Shown here piece after piece: positions 1,162 through 37,403 of a stretch of DNA of 37,403 nt; the stretch's first letter is position 1, and the number at the start of each line of letters is the position of its first letter. The notes under the pieces were generated by a model. The model did not search any database. It saw only the letters and a list, made by a program, of their open reading frames with translations, and had not been told where the DNA came from. Position numbers and translations under genes: made by a program. This stretch comes from Anaerolineae bacterium (GTDB lineage Bacteria; Chloroflexota; Anaerolineae; Anaerolineales; E44-bin32): NCBI GenBank assembly GCA_011174845.1, contig DUEW01000176.1:1-37403 (forward strand). Reading direction: 5' to 3'.

Positions 1162-3226
1162 AACGGTCCTGACCGTCTGTCCTTATTGCGGCTGCGGGTG
1201 CGGTATGTATCTGCCAGTTCTCGATGGCCAACTGGGGCAACCCATCCCTGATAAGACTCATCCCCTCAGCGAGGGTCGGCTATGCATAAAAGGCTGGGCT
1301 GCTAGCGAACATGTTGTCAGCCCGGATCGCTTGACCCAACCCCTGGTGAGAACTGGAGATGATCTGAAGCAAGCGACCTGGGACGAAGCCCTCGACCTTG
1401 TCGCTTCTCGGTTGATGACCCTCCGTGATCGTCACGGTCCTGACAGCCTGGCCTTTCTTTGTTCAGCCAAATGCACCAACGAAGAGAACTACCTGCTCCA
1501 GAAGTTCGCCCGGACAACGGTCGGTACAAATAACGTCGATCACTGCGCTCGCCTTTGACACTCCCCCACCGTGGCCGGTCTGGTCACAGCGTTTGGCAGC
1601 GGGGCAATGACCAACTCGGTTCCAGAGATCGAGGAGGCCGACTGCATCCTGGTCACCGGATCTAATACAAGTGAGAACCATCCTCTCATCGGCGCCCGAA
1701 TTCTCCGGGCTCAGCGGAAAGGGGCCAAGCTGGTCGTGGTGGACCCCAGGCACATACATCTGGCTCAGTTCGCCGATATCTATGCTCGATCCCGACCAGG
1801 CACTGACGTTGCTTGGGTAAACGGGCTGATGCACATCATCCTCACGGAAGGCTGGGAGGATCGCGAATTCATCGCCGCACGCACCGATGGCTTTGAGCGA
1901 TTGAAGGAGAAAGTAGCCGAGTACTCACCCGAGAGAGTTGAAGCGATCACTGGCATTAAGCAGGGACAACTGAGGGAGATTGCCCGTCTGTATGCTGGAG
2001 CAGAACGGGCATCGATCGTCTACGCGATGGGCATCACCCAGCATACTACCGGCACAGACAACGTGCTCTCGTTGGCCAACTTAGCGATGCTGACAGGAAA
2101 TGTGGGTAAACGGGGCACAGGGGTCAATCCGCTGCGGGGACAGAATAACGTTCAGGGCGCATGCGACGTAGGAGGACTGCCGAACGTCTTCCCCGGCTAC
2201 CAACAGGTGACGGATCCTAAGGTGCGGGAGAAATTCGAGCAGGCCTGGGAGATCAAACCGGAATTCAAAGGTCTCCCGCAGGAGCCAGGTTTAACGTTGG
2301 TCGAAATGATGAACGCCTGCGCCGAGGGTACATTAAAGAGCATGTTCATCCTGGCTGAGAACCCCGTGCTCTCCGATCCCGATGTCAATCATGTACGCGA
2401 GGCGTTACAAAATTTAAAATTCCTGGTCGTGCAGGATATCTTTCTCACAGAGACTGCCGAGTTGGCCGATGTGGTCCTCCCAGGCAGCAGTTTCGCTGAG
2501 CGCGATGGAACGGTGACCTCCACCGATCGTAGCGTACAGCGTATGCGGAAAGCTGTCGAGCCGCCAGGCGGTGCTCTGCCCGATTGGGAGATCATCTGTC
2601 AGGTAGCGAAGCGATGTGGGGGCAATGGTTTCGAGTACGATTCTCCGGAGGAAGTGTTCGCCGAGATGGCACATTTAACCCCCATCTACGGTGGCATCAA
2701 TTATTCGCGACTGGAGAATGAGTGGTTGCGTTGGCCGTGTAGCTCGCCCGAGGATCTTGGAACTGAATTCTTGCACCATGATCAATTCGCTAAAGGACGG
2801 GGACTCTTCACAGCGGTGGAATACAGAGAACCGGTAGAATTGCCAGATGAACAGTACCCGTTCATGCTTACCACTGGTAGGCAAATCTTCCATTACCACA
2901 CGGGCACCATGACACGGCGCTCACCCAGCCTCGCCCGGGAAGTGGAGCAGGGCTTTATCGAGCTTAGCCCTTATGATGCACTACAGTTGGGCGTGCAGGA
3001 TGGCGAAAAGGTGACGGTTGCCTCCCGGAGAGGGGTGATCGAGATCAAAGTCAAAGTGACATCCACCGTATCCAGAGGATTGGTGTTTATTCCATTTCAT
3101 TTTGCTGAAAGTGCAGCGAATGTGCTCACTCACCGGGCGCTGGACCCCGTGGCCAAGATCCCGGAGTTTAAGGTTTGCGCTGTTTCGGTCAGCAGAGGTC
3201 CGCAGCCGGATGTCAGATGTGATTGA
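1151..3226 (+). CDS. fdhF: Formate dehydrogenase catalytic (alpha) subunit, selenocysteine-containing
   Basis: Read through the in-frame TGA at 1556-1558, this is one 691-aa molybdopterin oxidoreductase (E. coli FdhF is 715 aa). It oxidises formate to CO2, or the reverse, at a Mo or W bis-pyranopterin centre. An N-terminal [4Fe-4S] site is visible at C10/C13/C17/C45. Selenocysteine would be residue 136 in the context CARL-U-HSPTVAGL, matching the CARV-U-HGPSVAGL context of E. coli FdhF, with the active-site His next to it. Downstream blocks such as MLTGNVGKRGTGVNPLRGQN are also typical, and the C-terminal molybdopterin-dinucleotide domain is present. The GTG start overlaps the upstream FrhB-like gene, and the 3' end overlaps the HdrC-like gene by 17 bases. 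A frameshift or pseudogene is unlikely because the frame is the same on both sides of the TGA and a SECIS hairpin follows it. No membrane anchor or Tat signal is seen, so it should be cytoplasmic. Confidence 0.93.
1556..1594 (+). promoter_or_regulatory. Bacterial SECIS element directing UGA to selenocysteine
   Basis: The UGA at 1556-1558 is followed by a hairpin with stem GTGGCC (1571-1576) and GGTCAC (1582-1587) closing a GGTCT loop (1577-1581). Exactly 18 nt separate the UGA from GGTCT. As recalled, the same spacing and the same loop occur in the E. coli fdhF SECIS element, where SelB binds this loop. The hairpin lies inside the coding sequence and keeps the frame. Confidence 0.88.
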
Positions 3227-7424: not shown

Positions 7425-8633
7425 ATGGTGGGTACTAAAAAGACAAAAGGCGTGATCGCAATCCTCACTGGTGGTGGGGATGTCCCTGGGCTCAATCCTG
7501 CGATCCGGGCAGTGACCATACGAGCCCTTCATGAAGGCTATCAGGTTATCGGCTTTCGCCGCGGTTGGGCGGGTCCCGTCGGCTTTATCCACGAGAAAAA
7601 TGCCGATAATAGTAAATGCTTCCAAGTGCTGACCGAAGAGATCGTCAATAAAGCAGGCAGAACTGGCGGAACTTTTTTGCACACCTCACGCACAAACCCT
7701 ACACGAATAGCCAAGGCTGACGTTCCTGAGCATCTGAGAGAACAATATAACGAAGAAGTGAACGATCTAACACCGGAGGTCATCAAAACATTGGACCATT
7801 TGGGGGTGGACTATCTCATCCCGATTGGAGGAGACGACACGCTGAGTTATGCGGTGCGTTTGTATCAGGAAGGCATAAAAGTGGTCGCCATCCCTAAGAC
7901 GATGGACAACGATGTGCCCGGAACAGATTATTGCATCGGATTCAGCACCTGCGTGACCAGGACGATCGAGATGACGAACCGTTTGCGAACCACAGCAGGC
8001 TCTCATGAAAGAATCATGGTCGTTGAGGTGTTTGGTCGGTATGCTGGCTTCACCGCGATGCTCCCCACAATGGCAGGCGCAGCGAATCGATGCGTCATCC
8101 CGGAATATGAATTCGACATCGATGATCTTACCAGGCTTCTGGTCAACGACCGCTGTCTAAACCCAAGCAAATATTCCGTGGTGCTCGTCTCGGAAGGCGC
8201 GATGTTCAAAGGTGGAGAGATGATCTTCCAGGACACCCTTAAAGATGCCTATGGGCATATGAAGCTTGGGGGCATCGGTGACTTAGTTTCAGTGAAAATC
8301 AAAGAACTTTCGCCGAAATATAACAACGGCATACCGGTTAACACCATCACCCAAAAACTTGGGTATCTGGTACGGGGAGGCGATCCCGATGCCATTGATT
8401 CGATTGTGCCAATGGCTTACGGGAATCTCGCCCTAGACTTGGTCCTCGCAGGGATCCACGGCCGGCTCGTCGTGCTCAAGAACGGACGATATGACAATGT
8501 CCCTATTGATGTCGTCATCAGTTCAGCCAAAATTGTAAATATAGAGAAACATTACAATAGAGAGCGATTGCGCCCACAATACAAGAGCTTCGCGATGAAG
8601 CCACTCTTTCTCATGACCAGCGAACTGGACTGA
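7425..8633 (+). CDS. Phosphofructokinase, PPi-dependent type by signature residues
   Basis: This 402-aa enzyme of the PfkA superfamily phosphorylates fructose 6-phosphate in glycolysis, or works in reverse in gluconeogenesis if PPi-linked. The N-terminal TGGGDVPGLN loop is at 15-24. The phosphate-donor loop reads GGDDT (135-139), with Asp where ATP enzymes have Gly, and the catalytic loop reads IPKTMDND (156-163), with Lys158 where ATP enzymes have Gly. Asp plus Lys is the established signature of pyrophosphate-dependent enzymes. ATG 7425 has CAGGAGG upstream. A second phosphofructokinase with ATP-type loops is encoded at 10496. The radical SAM gene follows 20 bases downstream and is probably cotranscribed. 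A role in sedoheptulose phosphate metabolism, known for some PPi enzymes, is also possible. Confidence 0.88.
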   Translation: MVGTKKTKGVIAILTGGGDVPGLNPAIRAVTIRALHEGYQVIGFRRGWAGPVGFIHEKNADNSKCFQVLTEEIVNKAGRTGGTFLHTSRTNPTRIAKADVPEHLREQYNEEVNDLTPEVIKTLDHLGVDYLIPIGGDDTLSYAVRLYQEGIKVVAIPKTMDNDVPGTDYCIGFSTCVTRTIEMTNRLRTTAGSHERIMVVEVFGRYAGFTAMLPTMAGAANRCVIPEYEFDIDDLTRLLVNDRCLNPSKYSVVLVSEGAMFKGGEMIFQDTLKDAYGHMKLGGIGDLVSVKIKELSPKYNNGIPVNTITQKLGYLVRGGDPDAIDSIVPMAYGNLALDLVLAGIHGRLVVLKNGRYDNVPIDVVISSAKIVNIEKHYNRERLRPQYKSFAMKPLFLMTSELD

Positions 8634-10495: not shown

Positions 10496-11467
10496 TCAGC
10501 GTGCAAGGATCTTCGCCATCTCATAGAATTCAAGGTTAGGTTCTCGTGACTGCGCCACTACCTGCTCCAGTGGAATCGTCACGATCTCTCGACCTTGAAG
10601 ACCGACCATCACATCGCTCGTGCCTTTGAGAAGCGCCTCTACAGCTTCAACTCCCATCCGTGTCGCCAACATACGATCAAAAGCGGATGGACTCCCTCCA
10701 CGTGGAACATGTCCCAGGATGGTCCCCCTTGTCTCAAAACCCACTTCACGAGTATTGAGGTGGTCTTCTACCTCTTTTACACTGAACTTAGCTCCCTCGC
10801 CAACGATGATGATGGCATGCGTCTTCCCTCGAGCGTACGCATCCTCGACCGCATCACCCACCTGCTCCAATGGCATCTCAACTTCTGGAATCAGTATCAC
10901 CTCAGCACCACAAACGACGCCCACCAGCAACGCCAGGTAACCACATCGCCTCCCCATGGTCTCTACCAGGAATGCGCGTTGGTGTGAGGAAGCCGTGTCA
11001 CGTAGTTTATCAACCGCCTCCATGATCGTATTCAGCGCCGTGTCCACGCCGAGAGACATGTCCGTCCCCCAAATATCGTTGTCGATCGAAGCGGGTACAC
11101 CAACGACCGGAACCCCCCACCCGGCTAGCGCATGGGCGCCCTTCATCGAACCGTCCCCCCCGATCACGATCAGCCCCTCAATTCCCGCCTCGTTCAGTTC
11201 CCGCAACGCCTGTCGTTGACCCTTACGCTCGAGGAATTCCGGACAGCGCGCCGTTCGTAGAAATGTTCCACCGCGCTGTAAGATCCCGCCTACATCTCTC
11301 GCCCTCAAGGATTCCATCTCTCCACGGATCAGGCCGTCAAAACCCTCCTGAATGCCTATGACTTCCATCCCTTGCGAAATGGCCATACGTACGACCGCTC
11401 GAATACAAGGGTTAATGCCGGGTGCATCGCCACCCGAGGTTAGCACGCCGATCGTACGATATTTCAT
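10496..11467 (-). CDS. pfkA: ATP-type 6-phosphofructokinase
   Basis: This 323-aa protein has the usual length of bacterial PfkA (about 320). It converts fructose 6-phosphate to fructose 1,6-bisphosphate. Visible features are TSGGDAPGIN (10-19), the donor loop GGDGS (103-107) with Gly as in ATP enzymes, and the catalytic loop PASIDND (125-131) with the catalytic base Asp129. Ala126 stands where E. coli has Gly124, and not the Lys of PPi enzymes. The ATG overlaps the dnaE stop by four bases (ATGA), so translation is coupled; dnaE near pfkA is a recurring neighbourhood in Gram-positive-like genomes. The ATP preference is inferred from residues. The second, PPi-type enzyme at 7425 makes the pair unusual. 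Confidence 0.92.
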   Translation of the reverse strand: MKYRTIGVLTSGGDAPGINPCIRAVVRMAISQGMEVIGIQEGFDGLIRGEMESLRARDVGGILQRGGTFLRTARCPEFLERKGQRQALRELNEAGIEGLIVIGGDGSMKGAHALAGWGVPVVGVPASIDNDIWGTDMSLGVDTALNTIMEAVDKLRDTASSHQRAFLVETMGRRCGYLALLVGVVCGAEVILIPEVEMPLEQVGDAVEDAYARGKTHAIIIVGEGAKFSVKEVEDHLNTREVGFETRGTILGHVPRGGSPSAFDRMLATRMGVEAVEALLKGTSDVMVGLQGREIVTIPLEQVVAQSREPNLEFYEMAKILAR

Positions 11468-19425: not shown

Positions 19426-21357
19426 TTAATTGGCCTGAGGATGAAATTGAGTCTCATGTAGACGGGCGTACAATCCGCCGCGAGCTAACAACCCTTCATG
19501 CCGACCCTGTTCGACCAAACGACCCTCGTCCATGACCAAGATCAAGTCAGCCCCCATGATCGTGCTCAAACGATGAGCGATCACCAGAGAAGTCCGACCT
19601 CGCATGACCCGTTCCATGGCATCTTGGATGAGCGCCTCGGATTGTGAATCGAGGTGACTGGTAGCCTCGTCCAAAATTAAAACTTTAGGATCTTTTAGCA
19701 ACACACGCGCGATCGCTACGCGTTGTCTTTCACCACCCGATAAGCGATAGCCCCGCTCGCCAACAACCGTATCATAGCCATCGGGCAGGGAAACAATGAA
19801 GTCGTGAATATTTGCCGCACGGCAAACCGCTTCTAACTCCTCCTGGGTCGCGTCTGGCTTGGCATAGAGAAGGTTTTCGCGAAGTGTGGCGTGAAATAGG
19901 TACGTTTCCTGTGTGACCATACCTACATGTGTAGCAATTGAATCGAGGGTCAAATCGCGCAAGTCATGGCCATCGAAGGTCACGCGACCCTCAGTAGGAT
20001 CATATAAGCGTGGCAAGAGATAGGTAATGGTCGTCTTGCCGGCACCGCTCGGGCCGACAAGCGCTGCCACCTGTCCGGGATGAATTTCAAAGCTGACATC
20101 CCAGAGAGCATAGCGTACAGGTTCATCATCGCCCGAAGCACCATCTCCATCTTTACGTGCTACCTTCGGTGCGATGTAGCTGCTATGCGTGCGCCAGGAG
20201 AAACGGCGGACTTCTTCTAATCCTACCGGTGCTCCCTTCGCTTCTTGATAGCTGAACGCTACTCCCTCAAAACGAAGATGACCACGAGCATCGGTCAGGG
20301 TTAATGCCCCTGGTCGATCGGTGATCTCAATTGGTAGATCGAGTACCTCAAATACGCGTTCGAAGCTCACCATCGAGGTGGCGAACTCGACTCTCGCGTT
20401 GGTTAATGCTATCAAAGGACCATACAAATCACGCAGATACACACTGAAGGCGACGATCGTTCCAATCGTGAATACACCGCGGAGCACCAGATGACCACCT
20501 GCCCAGAATACCAACGCCGTCCCAATCGCGCTTACCAAGCTCAGTGCCAAGAAAAACCACCGACCGATCACGGCTTGTCTCACACCTATATCACGAACCT
20601 GGGCAGCATTCTCGGAAAAACGTTCCACTTCTGATTGATACCGTCCGAAGATCTTCACCAACAAGGCACCGCTGATATTCAGCGTCTCGTTCATCATGGC
20701 GTTCATGCGAGCGTTGAGCTCCAATGCTTGACGTGCGATTCGACGTAATACATCACCCACACGCCGCGCTGGTAACACGAAAAGCGGTAAGATGGCCACT
20801 CCCAAGAGGGTTAAACGCCATTCGAGCGAGAGCATTACGGCCAATGTAGCGACGAGGGAAAAGAGATTACTGGCAAGTGTAATCAGCGTCCCAGTGACCG
20901 CACGTTGAGCGCCGATGACGTCGTTGTTAAGGCGGGACATCACCTCTCCCACTTGGGTATGGGTGTAGAAACGCAGGCTCATACATTGGAGATGTGTGTA
21001 CAAAGCACGTCGCAGATCGAAGATGATCCCCTCTCCAATTCTGGCACTGGCATAACGTTGCGCCACCCCGAGCAAGCCATTGGCTAGCGGTACGGCGATC
21101 ATCCCCAGCGCTAACAAATTTAATCGGAGAAAGTCCCATTGAGGAAGAGCGTTGTCAAGCAGGTCGCGCATCAACAACGGAGGTAGAAGTGATAGGAGCG
21201 ATACACCAAACATCGTGGCCAGCATGATCACAATCCCACGCCAGTAGGGTCGAGCGTAACCACCAACCCGGCGTAGCAGTGCTTGACTGACCTCGGGCCG
21301 ATCCTGTTCTTCGTCGTACCGGATATAGGAAAACCACCCTCCTCCGTGATGCCCCAT
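19426..21357 (-). CDS. ABC exporter half-transporter (MsbA/MDR-like)
   Basis: This 643-aa protein fuses a six-helix type IV exporter membrane domain (about 35-320) to a nucleotide-binding domain. Walker A is GPSGAGKTT (435-443), the signature is LSGGERQ (539-545), and Walker B ends VLILDE (559-564), followed by ATSHLD. It would work as a dimer to export lipid, drug or peptide; the substrate cannot be read. A roughly 45-residue insertion, about 371-416, separates the beginning of the nucleotide-binding domain (VAFSY) from ALWDVSF, next to the A-loop. ATG 21357 has AAAGGAG upstream. The gene stands alone, with no partner half-transporter nearby. Confidence 0.93.
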   Translation of the reverse strand: MGHHGGGWFSYIRYDEEQDRPEVSQALLRRVGGYARPYWRGIVIMLATMFGVSLLSLLPPLLMRDLLDNALPQWDFLRLNLLALGMIAVPLANGLLGVAQRYASARIGEGIIFDLRRALYTHLQCMSLRFYTHTQVGEVMSRLNNDVIGAQRAVTGTLITLASNLFSLVATLAVMLSLEWRLTLLGVAILPLFVLPARRVGDVLRRIARQALELNARMNAMMNETLNISGALLVKIFGRYQSEVERFSENAAQVRDIGVRQAVIGRWFFLALSLVSAIGTALVFWAGGHLVLRGVFTIGTIVAFSVYLRDLYGPLIALTNARVEFATSMVSFERVFEVLDLPIEITDRPGALTLTDARGHLRFEGVAFSYQEAKGAPVGLEEVRRFSWRTHSSYIAPKVARKDGDGASGDDEPVRYALWDVSFEIHPGQVAALVGPSGAGKTTITYLLPRLYDPTEGRVTFDGHDLRDLTLDSIATHVGMVTQETYLFHATLRENLLYAKPDATQEELEAVCRAANIHDFIVSLPDGYDTVVGERGYRLSGGERQRVAIARVLLKDPKVLILDEATSHLDSQSEALIQDAMERVMRGRTSLVIAHRLSTIMGADLILVMDEGRLVEQGRHEGLLARGGLYARLHETQFHPQAN

Positions 21358-30413: not shown

Positions 30414-31229
30414 TTATTCCATCGTCAATCGGCGCACCTCACGCGTTTCAAAATCATACTTTGCTATACCTATGGAAGTAAGTAATGTGAGGATGGCTTG
30501 AACAAAAAGGGTCGGAATCCATGTGAGCAGGCCGGAAACTGTATAGATACTGAAAAACAAGCCTCCGGATAGAATCAATGGTAAATATTGCTCGTAAGGC
30601 TTCAGCGTCTGGTCGAAGAAACCATCCATAAAACTTTGAAATTCCTCTCTGAATTCGATGACCATCTCCTGGCGTCCTTCCTCAGGGGCGCGTAGCACGA
30701 ACTGTTTCTCCATAGGTTCCATTAGGAATTCAATATAACGGTCAGGGATTGTAAAACCTTCCCTGGCAATGGATTCCCGAATCCCGATATAGAAGCTCCC
30801 ACATGCCACCAGGATGAGACCTATCAACAAGATATTCTGGTTTTGGCTAATGGGTCGCACAGTGAAATCAATCTGTTTCTCAAGTCCTCTCATGACATTG
30901 CTCGCATATCCAACGCCAAGAAGTACGAAGACGAAAGTCAGGACTCCGCTAACCACGGTCACTTGCCAACCAAGTAGCATGGCCAAACCAGAAAGGAGGA
31001 AAGCTATCGCCGACACCCACAAAGGCCTCAAGAGCGCAGCCACCAGGCCAGCACAAATCAGCATCAATCCGAGCGATAAAAGGATCCAAAGGAGTAGGTA
31101 AAGGAGTTCGATTGAGGGAGCAATGAGCAGCTGATCGAATTCGCCAATCTGTTTACAGATCGTTCCAAAGAAATATCCTGCTCCGGTCATCAGGATGATG
31201 AAAATAAAATTTTTCGCCCAACGATTCAT
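30414..31229 (-). CDS. Polytopic membrane protein, function unknown
   Basis: This 271-aa protein has about six to seven membrane segments: FIFIILMTGAGYFFG near the N terminus, LLYLLLWILLSLGLMLICAG, LWVSAIAFLLSGLAML, VVSGVLTFVFVLLGVG, NILLIGLILVACGSFYIG, and two near the C terminus (YLPLILSGGLFFSIYTVSGL, LFVQAILTLLTSIGI). A soluble stretch of about 60 residues (about 160-220) separates the last pair. ATG 31229 is chosen because AAAGGA lies eleven bases upstream; an earlier ATG at 31274 has no ribosome-binding site. No family is recognised. It lies just downstream of the large kinase gene on the same strand, about 245 bases away. Confidence 0.65.
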   Translation of the reverse strand: MNRWAKNFIFIILMTGAGYFFGTICKQIGEFDQLLIAPSIELLYLLLWILLSLGLMLICAGLVAALLRPLWVSAIAFLLSGLAMLLGWQVTVVSGVLTFVFVLLGVGYASNVMRGLEKQIDFTVRPISQNQNILLIGLILVACGSFYIGIRESIAREGFTIPDRYIEFLMEPMEKQFVLRAPEEGRQEMVIEFREEFQSFMDGFFDQTLKPYEQYLPLILSGGLFFSIYTVSGLLTWIPTLFVQAILTLLTSIGIAKYDFETREVRRLTME

Positions 31230-31473
31230 CTCAGCACTTATCCTTTCAATCGTAGGCTTGTATCCAATCTCCATTACGCAGATTGGTAGAATTTTCCTGT
31301 TTAGATAAAACTACTAAATTCCGATTCCCCTCTCTATAAGCATACGATTCTGAAGCAGCCACCAAATCACACACCTAGGGGAATCCCTTAGGTATGCCAA
31401 CCAAATCTAAATAATGATCACTAATTGAGTAAAACAGGAGACCATCTACTAAAAGACTCCATACACAAAAATC

Positions 31474-34400
31474 CTAATGCGGCTCAAGGACGATCTCTTT
31501 GTACCACGATCTAAATGCTCCTGCTATTTGGACTTTTTTCACCCACGGTTTCACAAGGATATGCCAGCGTATGTAAGTCAAAGGGATGATTGGGACTTCG
31601 TCCACCAGGATCCTCTCCGCCTCATGGTACATCTTCATACGTTCTTCCTGGTCACCTACCCGGCGCGCCTCTTCTACCAGGTTTTCATAGGTTTCATTGT
31701 GCCAGCGAGTTAGCTCCTGGAAGTGTGCCGTCCTCATGAAATTATCAGGGTCAGGGTAATCTGCAGCCCATGCCATCGTGAATAGATGAGGCGGTTCCTC
31801 GACAAGCCGTTTGCTATACTGGCTCCACTCAAAATGTTCGCACTTGATTTCAACCCCCAGACTCTCGTACCATTGGTCTGCCAAGCTGGGAGCTCTCACG
31901 CAATCTCCACCAAAAAAGAACTCGACAGAGGGGAAACCAACACCGTCAGGGTAACCAGCTTCCTTCAGGAGATCTTGTGCTCTTTTAGGATCACAAGATG
32001 TCTTGATCTCTTTTGTATGACCTAGTAACCCCGGCGGCACAAAACCACCTAAGGCAGGGAAATCAAAACCTCTCAATGTTTCATCCGCCAGCCTTACTTT
32101 ATCTGTGGCCAGAGCGAAGGCCTGACGAACTCGAACATCATCAAAAGGCGGTCGACTTGTGTCAAATCCCACGTAGCTGGTAACTGTTTCGGGGTATGAG
32201 AGATATTCACCTGCAAAACCTTGCCTCGCGCGATCGTTCTCGATGGAATGCGGCCATAGCCCATAAATGTCCAGAGCACCGTCTACGTACATCTGCAATT
32301 TTTTGGATCGATCCGCAATCAGGCATAGTTCCACCTGTTCCACATTACCTGGGAAACTGCCAGGGTAGCGAGGATTCCGGGTCAAGGTCATTGATCTTCC
32401 CGGTTGCCATTCCTCCAAGCGGAATGGACCGTTGGTGACCAGATTTCCCAGCTCGGTCCAAGCTTCCCCATGCTCTTCGACGATATGTCTGGGCACAGGG
32501 AAACCCACAGAAAGCAAGTGCAGGGCATACCCCACTCGATCCTCATGCTCAAACTCCAGCGTCATGTCATTCAACGCCCTTATACCTACACAATCGGGAT
32601 CGGTCACTTCACCCTTGTGGAAAGCTCGTGCACCCTTGATGCTGTATAGCAATTGGGCGCTAGGGGAACCAAGCGCAGGATCTAAGACGCGCTTCCAAGT
32701 GTATACAAAGTCATGAGCCGTCACTGGGTGTCCGTCGCTCCAGTAGAAATCATCGCGCAGGTGAAATATATACTTTCGCCCGCCCTCCAATACCTCCCAA
32801 CGTTGGGCGATCTCAGGCACGATGTCCAATTCCGGTGTGACTGTGATCAAACCGCTGAAGAGATGCGCGATCACGTCCATTGAGTATGTGTCATGCGCCT
32901 TCACCGCATCAAGCGTCGATGGATCTATCCAATGATCAACTCTCAGCGGATGAGGTGCGGGTTCCATCAAGCCCTCGTCAATCACTTCTCCCGCGCGTTG
33001 TAAGAACGCAAATCCTTCCTCGTATGCATGTCGGGCAGATTCAAAGTTGTAGGCCAGGTGATGAGTCAAGCCTAATTTCATCAGCGTTCTCGCTGCTCGA
33101 TCGTACTCCTTCTGTTCTCTTAGGAAATCTAAAGCCCGTTCGTAATAATCGATCGCCTCGCGGTGCGCATGCAATGCACGTGCCTTATCTCCAGCTGTAA
33201 GTAAATTCTCGATCGCCTTTTCAGCCTCCCCTGCCTCTGTATAATGACGGGCTAACTGAACGGCGATCTCGTCCCTGCGTCCTTCGTAAAGCTCATCAAG
33301 GACGGAGGCGATCTCACGGTGCAATAAACGACGTTCTCCTGGGCTGAGCTCGTTATACAGATAGCGCTGGATGACGGTGTGTGCAAACTGGTAGCGCGAC
33401 AGGTGATAGCGACCTACCCTCACCTCGCTCCCCACCCGAACAAGACGGTGTCGCTTCTCAAGTTCTTGAGAAAGCTCACGCAAGAGCTTTCTTTCACCAA
33501 TCTCCTGTACCCGAGCGATGACCTGGGCGGTGAAATCCTCCCCCTCCACACTGGCCACCGAAAGGATCTCTCGCAGCTCCGTCTCCAGTCGACCCACGCG
33601 CTCTTCTATCACCCCTTCCACCCGAGCCGGCAGCGTTCCCCAATCCAGCGCCGGACCTTCGACCCAACGCCCTTGCTTATCAAGAATTAAATCCCCCCGC
33701 TCCTGCATCGCTCGTAACAATTCGATGGTGAAGAGCGGATGGCCGCTTGTGTGGCGGTATAATGCCTGGCGGAAACCTTCATCCAACCGATTGGGTTCTG
33801 TATCCAAAAAGGCATCCACAAAATCCCGGTCTTCAGCTTCATCCATTTCACCAAGATCGATCCAGATATCACCAAAGTAGCGCTTCATCTCAGTAAGCAT
33901 CTTTTCCAATGGATGGCGCCCACCGTTTCTTCCCAGAGCAACCTCATCGGGACGATAAGCCCCAGCGATGAGGATCCGAGCTCCCTCGATGCGCCTGCTG
34001 AGATGGAAAATCAGGTCGATGGAACCTGTATCCGCCCATTGAAGATCATCGAGAAGGATCATCAAGGGACGTTGAGATGCAAGTTCACAGAGCACATTTG
34101 CGTATTGATCAAAAAGATGGGTCTGTTCCAACTCGCCTGGGGTTGCCCTTTCGCGACTGACCAATGCTCTTAGTCGATCCATCCATGGCGCTTTATCCAA
34201 CGTAGCCGCTGTTGCACGTTTTTCCAGATCACCACCAAATATAAAAAGATCGACCAAGTCAGGACCGTTATCGATCAGCATCTCTATGGTGGCAGGAAGA
34301 TGATTCCACAACCGCCGGGCGTGATCCTGTGTGATCGTTCCAGCAGACCATCGACCTTCAACATCCCCGGTGAGCATTCCTAACACGTCACGGAAGGGAA

Positions 34401-35514
34401 GGTAGGGATCGCCGGTTCCTGTGTGTGGGTTGCAGCTTCCTGAAGCTACTAATAACTCTCCATTCTCCTCTTGAGCTCGCTTTGAGAATTCCTGGAGTAA
34501 AGCTGTCTTGCCATTCCCTGCATTACCTGTGACGAAAACCACCTGACCATGACCCCTGAGCGCTTTATGTAGAACTTCATCAAGCCGAGCCAATTCATGT
34601 TCACGACCAACAAACACGGGATATTCAACCTCCCGCTCCCCCTCCACCCCTTCGAGAAAGGACGGGAGTCCAGATTCATCAGCCATGTCCCCCTCGATGG
34701 CTAGGGCTTGCCGATATGCTTCCATCACCATTGATACATCGACGTAGCGCTCAGCAGGATTCTTAGCTGTCGCCCGTTGGATCAGACCATTCAACGCCTT
34801 CGACATTTTCGGGGATGGCCCTCTGATCGAGGGCAGGGGTTGATTGAGATGTTTCTGAATCAACTGCACCGGCGTCAATCCTGGGAAGGGATGTTCACCC
34901 ACCAACATTTCATAGAGAACCACCCCTAACCCATAGATGTCGGTTTTTGGTGTGACTGGCTCACCCTTAGCTTGTTCCGGTGCCAGATAGAAAACCGACC
35001 CGACGATCTCACCCGTCTTGGTCAAGCCTTCCTCAACCAAATCCTTGGCGATCCCAAAGTCGGTGAGATAACCGTTGCCCTCCTCATCTAGCAGGATATT
35101 CTCTGGTTTCAAATCCCGATGCACCACCCCCTGTTTGTGCGCCACATTCAGCGCTTCCGAGAGCTGTTCCAAGAGCCGGCCAGCAGCTTCAACACCCAAA
35201 GGACCGCTCTTGAGCGCATCTACCAGGCTACCTCCCCGCAGCCAACGCATCACAAGGAAGGCACCCTCCTCATCCCGCCAGTAATCATACAGCGGCACGA
35301 TGTGGGGGTGCTCGAGTTTGGCCACCATGCGGGCTTCGACCTCGAAGCGACGCACGAATTCGGGATGATCGGCATACTCAGGCAGGATGACCTTGATCGC
35401 CACCTCGCGATCGACGGCCGGCTGCTCGGCGCGGTAGACGACGCCGAACCCGCCTTCGCCGATGCGTTCGATCAGCTTGTAACCTCGAATTTCTTTACCG
35501 CTCAAGTCATCCAT
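31474..35514 (-). CDS. Ser/Thr protein kinase-AAA ATPase-TPR-solute-binding-protein fusion
   Basis: A 1346-aa protein (ATG 35514, AAGGGA upstream). Residues about 8-275 are a Hanks-type kinase: glycine loop GEGGFG (19-24), VAIK with Lys41, HRDLKPEN (132-139), DFG (152-154) and APE (178-180), so it looks active. Residues about 300-560 are a STAND-like AAA ATPase: Walker A GNAGNGKT (330-337) and Walker B LMILLDD (484-490). Helical repeats including TPR-like units follow to about 850. Residues about 853-1346 match the SBP_bac_5 peptide/nickel-binding family (WSDGHPVTAHDFVYTWKRVL, TNGPFRLEEW). No signal peptide or membrane segment precedes any domain, so the binding domain should be cytoplasmic. 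It could be a single-protein ligand sensor with kinase output. Confidence 0.9.
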   Translation of the reverse strand: MDDLSGKEIRGYKLIERIGEGGFGVVYRAEQPAVDREVAIKVILPEYADHPEFVRRFEVEARMVAKLEHPHIVPLYDYWRDEEGAFLVMRWLRGGSLVDALKSGPLGVEAAGRLLEQLSEALNVAHKQGVVHRDLKPENILLDEEGNGYLTDFGIAKDLVEEGLTKTGEIVGSVFYLAPEQAKGEPVTPKTDIYGLGVVLYEMLVGEHPFPGLTPVQLIQKHLNQPLPSIRGPSPKMSKALNGLIQRATAKNPAERYVDVSMVMEAYRQALAIEGDMADESGLPSFLEGVEGEREVEYPVFVGREHELARLDEVLHKALRGHGQVVFVTGNAGNGKTALLQEFSKRAQEENGELLVASGSCNPHTGTGDPYLPFRDVLGMLTGDVEGRWSAGTITQDHARRLWNHLPATIEMLIDNGPDLVDLFIFGGDLEKRATAATLDKAPWMDRLRALVSRERATPGELEQTHLFDQYANVLCELASQRPLMILLDDLQWADTGSIDLIFHLSRRIEGARILIAGAYRPDEVALGRNGGRHPLEKMLTEMKRYFGDIWIDLGEMDEAEDRDFVDAFLDTEPNRLDEGFRQALYRHTSGHPLFTIELLRAMQERGDLILDKQGRWVEGPALDWGTLPARVEGVIEERVGRLETELREILSVASVEGEDFTAQVIARVQEIGERKLLRELSQELEKRHRLVRVGSEVRVGRYHLSRYQFAHTVIQRYLYNELSPGERRLLHREIASVLDELYEGRRDEIAVQLARHYTEAGEAEKAIENLLTAGDKARALHAHREAIDYYERALDFLREQKEYDRAARTLMKLGLTHHLAYNFESARHAYEEGFAFLQRAGEVIDEGLMEPAPHPLRVDHWIDPSTLDAVKAHDTYSMDVIAHLFSGLITVTPELDIVPEIAQRWEVLEGGRKYIFHLRDDFYWSDGHPVTAHDFVYTWKRVLDPALGSPSAQLLYSIKGARAFHKGEVTDPDCVGIRALNDMTLEFEHEDRVGYALHLLSVGFPVPRHIVEEHGEAWTELGNLVTNGPFRLEEWQPGRSMTLTRNPRYPGSFPGNVEQVELCLIADRSKKLQMYVDGALDIYGLWPHSIENDRARQGFAGEYLSYPETVTSYVGFDTSRPPFDDVRVRQAFALATDKVRLADETLRGFDFPALGGFVPPGLLGHTKEIKTSCDPKRAQDLLKEAGYPDGVGFPSVEFFFGGDCVRAPSLADQWYESLGVEIKCEHFEWSQYSKRLVEEPPHLFTMAWAADYPDPDNFMRTAHFQELTRWHNETYENLVEEARRVGDQEERMKMYHEAERILVDEVPIIPLTYIRWHILVKPWVKKVQIAGAFRSWYKEIVLEPH

Positions 35515-35599
35515 ATCATCTGTCCCTTTGAGAAATCGTTGTACGATTGTACAAGCTTCGAGGAAATATCCACTCCGATGCTGATAGGATGACAATGAT

Positions 35600-37403
35600 T
35601 CATTCTACACCACGCTCAGCACTGGCCTCCAAGATCTCCCGATTGATCCGCACGTTATCGAACCAGCTATTTCGCAGTTCCTCATCAGAGAAGTTGCTCG
35701 CCACGAGCATCACCCGCTCATAAGCACGCCGCAGGTACTCATCAGCTTCCTGATCTTGATCCTGGGCGCGGAGGATCTTCGAGTGGATGAAGAACCGTCG
35801 TTCAGGCATATATACAGAGGGATTAATCTCTGCCATTTCAATGGTCTCTTTCGAATACTTCAGAGCTTCATCAAGCATACCTAGCTCGAGACACAAACTA
35901 GCCACGACTTCTAGACAAAAATCGTGCTGAAAATAATCATCCTTAGGAGTGATCTCTAAAGATCGTTTACCAAGATTCAATCCTCCTTGGAACTTTTTTG
36001 GATCTCCTTTTTGTAGGATGGAATACGCTTGAGAAATATAGGCATTACCAAGATTTTCCTCATCCTCCGCGTCCTTCGCACCCTTTTCGACCTGACGTAG
36101 GATTTCGCTTGCACTTTCATAAGCCCCCAAAGCAGCTAGCCCGCGGCTCATCCAACTAAGTGAGAACAATTTTCCACTGATGCTGCCAACCCGTTCCATG
36201 TTCTCGGAGGACATCCGAAATTCATCAATCGCCGATTCGTATAGCCCAATTTCAAATAATCCAAACCCTTTGAAACGGACCAGGAAGCCAATTAACCATT
36301 CGTCCTCCTCGCTCATTGCCTTTGTAATTAACGGTTCGAGAAATGCAAACATATCTTCGAACTTGCCCTCGCGAACGTAGTGAGACAGCAGTAGATTGGA
36401 CACCGCAAAACCAATTCCAATCGAAGAACCAATGGCATTAGCAAGCTTAAGAGATTGCCACAGGGATTTATAGGATTCTTGATATTGACCAAGCCAAACT
36501 TGGATAATCCCGATGACGTTTAAGGCGTTACACTCCTCATGCTGATCCCCAAGTTCTCGATGCAGCGCTAACGCTTGTTCCGCAAAAGGTAATGCCTCGG
36601 GATGTTGGTATTGATTGATGTGGGCGATCGCCAATCGTCTCAGACTGGTCGCCTCTTGGCGCCGGTCACCGGCTTCCTGGCTTGCTGCCACCGCTTCCAG
36701 CACCGCTTCCAGCGCTCCATCAAAATCCCCTAACGAACCCAATGTCAGCGAGAGGATATGCAGGCAGATAGCTGCCTCTCCCAACATCCCTGCCTCTTTG
36801 AAACGTTCGAGTGCTGCTCCTAGATGTTTTCGAGCTTCAACATAATCACCCTGATACCAATGGAAGAGCCCTAACTGACGAAAAGCCTTGCCCTCACGTA
36901 CTCGATCTCCCAGCGTTTTCGAGATCTCCACTGCACGCTGTGCTGGATCCTTTGCTTCGATATGGTCTGTTTCTAGATGGTAATCCGCCAAAGCGAGCTG
37001 AGCATCACAACGACGAGTATCGTCATCCATTAGCTCAGCGAGATCTACCATAGCGCTCACATCCGCTAGATGCTTCTCTCTCAATGCGATCAGATTATAA
37101 ATCCCCGCTCTTGAGGCCAATAAATCGAAACGATCCGGATGGTTGTCCGTTAATAATTCAAGCGCCTCGGAGTAGTAGCGAATGGCTTCCTCATTGGCGT
37201 ACTTGGCTCTTGCCTGATGACCAGCCTGGGTAAGATAGTGGAGGGCTTTATCACTTACGCCTCCACGTTGATAATGAAAAGCCAGTTGAACCGCGAATTG
37301 ATCCGCACTTCCGGCGAACAATTCTTCCAACACATCTGCGATCTCGCGATGCAGCAAACGACGTTCCCCAGGGCTCAACTCGTTGTACAAATAACGCTGG
37401 AAA
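35600..37403 (-). CDS. TPR-repeat C-terminal part of a paralogous kinase/ATPase-type protein (partial)
   Basis: The frame is open through the window edge, so the N terminus is missing; about 601 residues are visible. The start of the visible part, QRYLYNELSPGERRLLHREI, is nearly identical to residues 716-735 of the neighbouring fusion protein, so both are paralogues and this one very probably also has ATPase and perhaps kinase domains upstream. From there on it is a long helical array of TPR units (for example ASQEAGDRRQEATSLRRLAI, LHRELGDQHEECNALNVIGI) to the C terminus, with no solute-binding domain. It ends 85 bases before the start of the fusion gene, in the same direction. It is likely a protein-interaction or signal-integration protein. 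Confidence 0.85.
   Translation of the reverse strand, partial: FQRYLYNELSPGERRLLHREIADVLEELFAGSADQFAVQLAFHYQRGGVSDKALHYLTQAGHQARAKYANEEAIRYYSEALELLTDNHPDRFDLLASRAGIYNLIALREKHLADVSAMVDLAELMDDDTRRCDAQLALADYHLETDHIEAKDPAQRAVEISKTLGDRVREGKAFRQLGLFHWYQGDYVEARKHLGAALERFKEAGMLGEAAICLHILSLTLGSLGDFDGALEAVLEAVAASQEAGDRRQEATSLRRLAIAHINQYQHPEALPFAEQALALHRELGDQHEECNALNVIGIIQVWLGQYQESYKSLWQSLKLANAIGSSIGIGFAVSNLLLSHYVREGKFEDMFAFLEPLITKAMSEEDEWLIGFLVRFKGFGLFEIGLYESAIDEFRMSSENMERVGSISGKLFSLSWMSRGLAALGAYESASEILRQVEKGAKDAEDEENLGNAYISQAYSILQKGDPKKFQGGLNLGKRSLEITPKDDYFQHDFCLEVVASLCLELGMLDEALKYSKETIEMAEINPSVYMPERRFFIHSKILRAQDQDQEADEYLRRAYERVMLVASNFSDEELRNSWFDNVRINREILEASAERGVE

Follow-up and report, generated by a model that had tools for sequence, protein, structure and literature searches.

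The two genes lying next to each other at the end of the DNA stretch analyzed here (37,403 nucleotides; referred to as the window) probably encode two STAND-type signalling ATPases with a Ser/Thr kinase as the output, one of which has an OppA-like domain in place of the repeat sensor, and the modules of which appear to be of different ages; we assign this reading a probability of about 0.6. The window is the entire contig C86 of a draft genome (G000; 3.13 Mb, 233 contigs, 81% complete). The two genes are adjacent, and both are on the minus strand (Table 1). One of them is complete and is called the fusion below, and the other, called the neighbour, is an open-ended frame of 600 aa, the contig ending inside the gene. 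The open frame of the fusion (31474-35595) has 1373 aa when counted from an upstream TTG, and this frame was used for the residue numbering. The start is likely to be the ATG at 35514 (residue 28), as judged from the aligned Met of the neighbour: the frame on contig C26 of the same genome, which is described below, begins at a Met aligned to fusion residue 28. Two genomes of the same genus (G002 and G004) were found by search and were used for comparison.

The fusion gave Pfam matches in the order Pkinase, AAA_16, TPR (sub-threshold; residues 806-865), and SBP_bac_5 (residues 925-1289), and the partial neighbour protein gave a TPR array, so that the different C-termini described in the original prediction were recovered. 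This is the effector, ATPase, arm, and C-terminal module order of STAND proteins, with a kinase at the front and an SBP or TPR module at the end. The kinase scored 181.1 bits (cut-off 31.7) and was assigned as a Hanks-type Ser/Thr kinase; VAIK, HRDLKPEN, and DFG, which we take to be the kinase motifs, are all present in the translation. The AAA_16 domain scored 86.3 bits (cut-off 32.6), as expected of the P-loop ATPase of a STAND protein; the translation contains GNAGNGKT and LLDDLQWAD, and we take GNAGNGKT to be Walker A and LMILLDDLQWAD to be Walker B. The rest of the ATPase region (residues 543-740) is inferred to have a helical/winged-helix make-up; no Pfam match was obtained there at 0.01, and a search with residues 323-880 against the PDB sequences returned no STAND structure (one match, E 0.009). 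The TPR_12 match of the arm (E 0.00013, 22.5 bits) is below the cut-off of 30.1, and a model of residues 740-1373 from a five-row alignment (mean pLDDT 56, pTM 0.40) was too poor to use. The SBP_bac_5 match (242.2 bits, cut-off 32.4) covers profile positions 2-359 of 368 and is thus full-length.

Table 1. Positions of the fusion, its parts, and the neighbour in the window (residues in the 1373-aa numbering)
Feature	Residues	Positions	Strand	Basis or remark
Fusion gene, kinase-ATPase-arm-SBP_bac_5, complete		31474..35514	-	likely ATG start at 35514
Ser/Thr protein kinase domain	39-285	34741..35481	-	Pfam Pkinase, 3.5e-53
AAA_16 P-loop ATPase domain	328-542	33970..34614	-	Pfam AAA_16, 4.2e-24
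Remaining ATPase (NOD-like) region	543-740	33376..33969	-	alignment with homologues
YLYNELSPGERRLLHREI block in the fusion, family motif	745-762	33310..33363	-	alignment
Arm	741-872	32980..33375	-	largely helical in a model of low confidence
Zone where similarity to kinase-TPR paralogues fades	~820-836	33088..33138	-	alignment
SBP_bac_5 (OppA-like) domain	881-1373	31477..32955	-	Pfam, 1.2e-71; PDB OppA 1b05
Codon of Asp1279, in WAADYPDPD	1279	31759..31761	-	alignment, opposite the Asp in WCADYNEP of OppA
Neighbour gene, 3' part: end of ATPase region and TPR array		35600..37402	-	open at the contig end
YLYNELSPGERRLLHREI block in the neighbour		37340..37393	-	alignment

Membrane segments were called by hydropathy alone (19-residue windows, threshold 1.6). 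No window reached a mean of 1.6 in the fusion (maximum 1.46), the partial protein (1.58), or the C26 piece (1.17), compared with a peak of 2.7 in the hydrophobic frame next door (30414-31274). In four relatives (L036, L041, L062, and L065), windows above 1.6 were found, all within the ATPase region. None of the 25 NCBIfam families listed for the fusion attained its own cut-off. Assignment to antiphage defence (PD-T4-6 / MAD6) was rejected, as the matches listed by PADLOC (25 of 34) all fall within residues 26-342 and cover the kinase part only. The 19 further frames of the window were scanned with Pfam; among them were an MFS frame, a frame of the ABC exporter type (19426-21357), and the above-mentioned hydrophobic frame, which is unassigned, and no importer permease for peptides was present among the 19. 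The window also has two phosphofructokinase genes on opposite strands (7425-8633 and 10496-11467; about 2 kb between them), and a Molybdopterin oxidoreductase frame (1571-3226) with a Fer4 iron-sulphur frame upstream of it (343-1161); the match of the former starts at profile position 97, and the frame may be split or mis-started. On contig C179 of G000, kinase matches at two loci (L005 and L008) read through one and two TAG stops; these are possibly decaying kinase copies, or the stops are near the match ends.

Since the window is the whole contig and no sequence beyond 37403 can be read from it, the end-to-end alignment of the two proteins suggested in the original prediction was made by proxy with G002. 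The intact G002 counterpart of the partial gene (L059 4339-8301, 1321 aa) carries Pkinase and AAA_16 by Pfam, and a lack of these domains in the upstream part, which would have contradicted the proposed module exchange, was therefore not observed. The missing 5' part in G000 is very probably on C26 (4716 bases), which ends inside a frame matching fusion residues 26-735 at 66%. At the protein level, the last 710 aa of C26 and the 600 aa of the window are each 85% identical to the G002 protein (residues 5-714 and 721-1320, respectively). At the DNA level, the identities are 83% for the C26 piece and 86% for the window piece, the former match stopping at base 2138 of the G002 gene and the latter starting at 2160, with 21 bases between the matches. 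Upstream of the piece on C26 is another frame (L074 1-2490), with an open start and 830 aa, and all of it aligns to the corresponding G002 frame at 81% identity. Thus, on the synteny with G002, the partial gene very probably encodes a kinase, an ATPase, and a TPR array, and the ends of C86 (window 37403) and C26 (L002 3636) appear to fall within this one gene. The frame directly upstream of the G002 pair (L059 8386-11652) is AfsR-like, BTAD-NB-ARC-TPR by Pfam, and there may accordingly be three STAND-type genes in a row. On the window side of the pair, six window proteins gave no tblastn match at 1e-4 to L059, L060, or L074.

The near-exact match that had been noticed between the partial protein and the fusion was confirmed at the YLYNELSPGERRLLHREI block (18/18 residues identical). 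A loose form of this block is present in 33 of the 57 ATPase-core frames, including frames that lack both a kinase and an SBP; the YLYNELS block is thus a family-wide motif, and was ruled out as a mark of special kinship between the two genes. Identity between the fusion and its TPR neighbour of G002 was 0.76 (residues 28-322), 0.61 (323-740), 0.62 (741-800), 0.51 (801-835), 0.16 (836-880), and 0.11 (881-1373), and in the same six bins the identity between the fusion and its own G002 orthologue was 0.79, 0.87, 0.88, 0.94, 0.89, and 0.74. As a control, two TPR-type genes stayed aligned past the same border (0.51, then 0.39). Against six kinase-TPR proteins, the mean identity of the fusion was 0.13-0.23 in every bin past residue 836. 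Against eight SBP proteins with a distant type-B ATPase, it did not exceed 0.38 in any bin to residue 790, and of the 18 bins past this residue 12 reached at least 0.5 (range 0.32-0.70); with eight SBP proteins that have a type-A ATPase, identity was raised in both parts. From these bin-wise identities to TPR and SBP proteins, the C-terminal change was placed in the arm, at about residues 790-836. The shared core and the break that had been expected of the alignment were therefore found, but the break is a slope across some tens of residues and not a sharp point.

Two histories of the pair were considered. In one, a duplication was followed by a C-terminal swap and then by recurrent gene conversion between the neighbours, affecting the 5' kinase part, a course of events that we regard as plausible at slightly under even odds. 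In the other, an ancient ATPase-SBP protein, related to those of the cyclase or BTAD type, gained the kinase of its neighbour, so that it was the N-terminal module that was swapped; this, too, we would back at a little short of an even chance. The tandem position speaks for the former, as does G004, where this slot is occupied by a kinase-ATPase gene of the TPR type. G004 consists of a single contig; behind its orthologue of the partial gene (L060 8651-12622) comes a second kinase-ATPase gene with a TPR C-terminus (L060 4480-8637), the open frame of which starts within 13 bases of the end of the first. In a quick kinase tree, the kinase of this second gene groups with that of a kinase-RCC1 protein (support 99), and the fusion kinase groups with its G002 orthologue (95); L060 4480-8637 was therefore regarded as another occupant of the slot and not as the fusion orthologue. 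In favour of the latter history, the kinases of the genus form one clade of eight in the quick tree (97), and this clade includes the kinase-RCC1 protein without AAA_16. The kinase-RCC1 frame itself (L061 2481-7343, in G004) joins a genus-clade kinase to RCC1 repeats with no AAA_16 between them, so that this kinase part has a further kind of C-terminal partner.

Four-fold synonymous identity was compared between the kinase (residues 28-310) and the ATPase core (residues 323-735). In three tandem pairs it was 57% (60/106), 49% (50/102), and 52% (56/107) for the kinase, and 28% (31/111), 22% (24/110), and 26% (31/117) for the core (Fisher p 2e-5, 5e-5, and 1e-4). No such drop was seen in three orthologue pairs (52 vs 55, 60 vs 58, and 66 vs 60%; p 0.62, 0.81, and 0.27), and the dispersed pair F2-E2 showed the drop weakly (p 0.055). 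When the tandem pairs were pooled in 50-codon bins, the identity fell from 0.49 (residues 278-327) to 0.23 (328-377), that is, at the kinase/ATPase border. The core bin of residues 628-677 rises to 0.42 in the tandem pairs; over the cores as a whole, paralogues of the genus have 0.27-0.30, which is near chance (0.25-0.26). At four-fold sites, therefore, the tandem kinase parts are near the age of the orthologues and the ATPase parts are saturated, a pattern that favours the capture of a kinase by an ATPase-SBP protein. The same cores are as saturated as in comparisons with other genera (0.27-0.28), which tells against the duplication-first history; because of this saturation, the duplication would have to predate the genus. 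On the other side, the same synonymous pattern is found in two TPR-type copies of G004, which weighs against kinase capture, and gene conversion alone could thus explain the pattern. Conversion tracts would also give the observed peak at the 5' end (0.73 at residues 28-77, declining along the kinase) and are in line with three stretches of 41, 35, and 29 bases in the kinase N-lobe that are shared without a mismatch by the fusion and C26. Note that in residues 28-120 the chance four-fold identity is 0.35 and the proteins of the genus reach 0.45 against other genera as well, so that part of the kinase signal may come from constraint or composition; with the kinase C-lobe alone, p for the tandem pairs was 0.07, 0.013, and 0.008. 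The second break at the kinase/ATPase border makes the high kinase identity a later event, and the plainest reading is that the kinase parts were recently copied or gene-converted among the paralogues of the genus. The data support the view that the ATPase cores of the two neighbours had diverged long before. Thus, the proposed module exchange after a gene duplication was upheld as regards the paralogy, the common kinase-ATPase core, and the change of the C-terminal module, but is too simple for this pair.

For the wider comparison, a family set of 59 frames was compiled, including the window fusion (L077) and the C26 piece (L002). Trees were reconstructed from 58 core rows and from 34 SBP rows (>350 aa); L106, which has no ATPase match, was left out, and rows taken from the window and from C26 themselves stood in for L077 and L002. 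In the SBP tree, three cyclase-/BTAD-type proteins with a type-A ATPase (L033, L034, and L104) group with three kinase-type proteins in which the ATPase is of type B (L041, L062, and L065) at 100/99. This six-protein group was rejected in the ATPase tree (p-AU 3e-55), and a single clade of the 12 type-A ATPase rows was rejected in the SBP tree (p-AU 2e-66), the formal p-values being weakened because the groups were named after the trees had been inspected; the likelihood gaps of the two tests were 163 and 143 units. The conflicting trees support an exchange of SBP modules between ATPase cores across the family as a whole, and the exchange that had been predicted for the pair would hold family-wide in this sense.

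The placement of the fusion itself was examined with trees of 35, 33, and 32 rows, from which the type-B ATPase rows and others were left out. A clade of the fusion ATPase core with L033/L034/L104 was not rejected (p 0.276), as a capture of the kinase would predict; but a clade with the kinase-TPR proteins of the genus was likewise not rejected (p 0.079, and 0.47 when L087 was added). A clade with all of the type-A SBP rows of the cyclase, BTAD, or no-N-terminus classes gave p 0.082. Further points against kinase capture are that the SBP of the fusion does not group with those of L033/L034/L104 (rejected in the SBP tree, p 5.7e-5), and that in the ATPase tree the fusion with L136 (p 0.039) and the fusion with L136 and L033/L034/L104 (p 0.042) were marginally rejected. 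The placement became no firmer when the halves of the ATPase core were treed apart or when L136 was added. The fusion core thus fits with either the kinase-TPR or the cyclase/BTAD-SBP proteins, and the C-terminal swap and the N-terminal kinase capture are both plausible. Against the history of duplication, swap, and conversion, the combination of kinase, type-A ATPase, and SBP was found only in G000 and G002 among the 59 family frames.

The best PDB match of the SBP part was OppA (1b05, E 1.5e-56), followed by 4toz (3.2e-56), near full-length; the part is nearest to OppA and MppA, and the PDB matches also include nickel- and haem-binding proteins. In OppA-like binders, the Asp of the ADY motif binds the amino terminus of the peptide, and the aligned Asp is present in 29 of 34 fused SBPs and absent from five. 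The domain starts at about residue 880, in a protein that has no membrane segment predicted by hydropathy, and there is no importer permease among the 19 further window frames. As it is apparently not exported and lacks a permease partner there, it was classified as an SBP-like domain and not as the transport SBP of an ABC importer. From the near full-length likeness to OppA, the conserved Asp, and the hydropathy, a cytoplasmic ligand would be expected, and as a first guess an oligopeptide is the putative ligand. That the SBP-like part is instead a scaffold or a decayed remnant we consider unlikely: its apparent cytoplasmic location, the missing permease, and the loss of the Asp in the five relatives would agree with this, but the near full-length match, the Asp retained in the others, the 74% identity of the SBP part between the G000 and G002 orthologues, and the wide occurrence of the arrangement argue against it. 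Matches spanning ATPase and SBP (from position 480 or before to position 1000 or beyond of a 1051-aa query) were obtained for 10 of the 27 family genomes and for at least 41 of the 396 class genomes, the window's own included; the latter value is a lower bound because two candidates were scored per genome. With an arm-SBP query under a strict cut-off, two positives were obtained among 301 genomes drawn across the phylum, one of which was the window's own. A chimera of the draft assembly is very improbable, since, for all that the genome is in 233 contigs and the contig ends inside the neighbour gene, G002 has the same fusion and gene order on a contig of 12,193 bases and SBP fusions occur in many other genomes.

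The same ATPase chassis was found in Anaerolineae with kinase, cyclase, or BTAD-like N-termini and with SBP or TPR C-termini. An SBP match was present in 36 of the 59 family frames, the N-termini of which were kinase (8, the window's included), cyclase (2), BTAD-like (18), and none detected (8, of which three are cut by locus ends). The N-terminus labels were assigned by BLAST against reference domains, and the BTAD labels other than that of L070 rest on BLAST to L070; Pfam, applied to 14 frames of relatives, detected BTAD in L070, and Guanylate_cyc in both L067 and L069. In G017, a kinase-ATPase-TPR gene (L068 2658-6401) has downstream of it, on the same strand, an SBP_bac_5-like frame of its own (L068 451-2106), the start of which resembles that of a lipoprotein; this is possibly an unfused pairing of the two.

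Known systems resemble parts of this arrangement. According to the available parts of two articles, the ADP form of STAND ATPases is closed by the arm and the sensor, an inducer opens it, and multimerization follows; there, the arm is suggested to be what is left of a TPR, with different sensors having been grafted onto it, and the arm/sensor break observed here falls where this idea would place it (PMC4381067, PMC6468293). MalT and PH0952 have the ATPase, the arm, and the C-terminal sensor as here, and the MalT sensor binds a small ligand (the same parts of PMC4381067 and PMC6468293). PknK of Mycobacterium tuberculosis, a Ser/Thr kinase, is counted among STAND proteins in the available part of one of them (PMC4381067), and in this the kinase-ATPase part of the fusion is like it. 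Unlike the fusion, MalT has DNA binding as its output, and its sensor is TPR-like and not a solute-binding domain. As for PknK, the difference is that here one of two neighbours ends in an OppA-like domain. OppA and MppA (SBP_bac_5) share the near full-length likeness and the aligned ADY-motif Asp; unlike them, the SBP of the fusion is internal to a kinase and ATPase protein. SgrR-type regulators have an SBP_bac_5 domain behind a DNA-binding domain, without an ATPase or a kinase, and are a precedent for an intracellular SBP_bac_5 sensor. AfsR/SARP regulators consist of BTAD, NB-ARC, and TPR; the BTAD-like N-terminus of many relatives (Pfam-confirmed in L070) resembles them, and they have no SBP domain, unlike the fusion. 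In TIGR03903 (TOMM system kinase/cyclase fusion), the start of the model is matched by the fusion kinase and the middle by the ATPase regions of L067 and L070; membership of the fusion was rejected (261.4 bits, cut-off 705.75). In another system, a periplasmic-binding-protein domain is placed behind membrane helices, according to the available part of PMC7159879. No description of a STAND protein with an SBP_bac_5 sensor was found in full-text literature searches, by which subscription papers were mostly not covered.

Combining the domain order with the STAND scheme, we infer sensing, ligand, switching, and phosphorylation for the fusion as follows. Both proteins would be cytoplasmic, with the C-terminal module as the presumed sensor. 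In the resting ADP form, the arm and the sensor would keep the ATPase closed. Binding of a small ligand, for which an oligopeptide is the simplest candidate, would close the two-lobed binding domain and release the arm, upon which ADP would be exchanged for ATP and the protein would multimerize; the clustered kinases could then phosphorylate one another as well as a target. The TPR neighbour would respond to a different input with the same output. As for the ages of the parts, the ATPase cores would have diverged first, SBP modules would have moved among cores in the wider family, and the kinase part would have been copied or homogenized between the genus copies much later.

More broadly, and tentatively, since we hold it at rather less than an even bet, the family may constitute class-wide intracellular receptors, in which an OppA-like sensor on a STAND ATPase is combined with an exchangeable kinase, cyclase, or BTAD output, the ends are traded at fixed borders, and the kinase parts are homogenized among neighbours. 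If this is true, a cytoplasmic peptide or solute signal would be wired to three kinds of output, and the family would supply natural kinase, cyclase, and BTAD-like versions on one kind of sensor. The grafting of sensors onto the STAND arm would be made visible by a TPR array and an SBP-like domain in the same slot of two genomes, with the module borders marked by breaks in both protein identity and synonymous identity. As the SBP domain has a defined pocket, direct binding screens would be a way to look for its ligand. The neighbouring pair would thus show how signalling switches are rebuilt from exchangeable parts.
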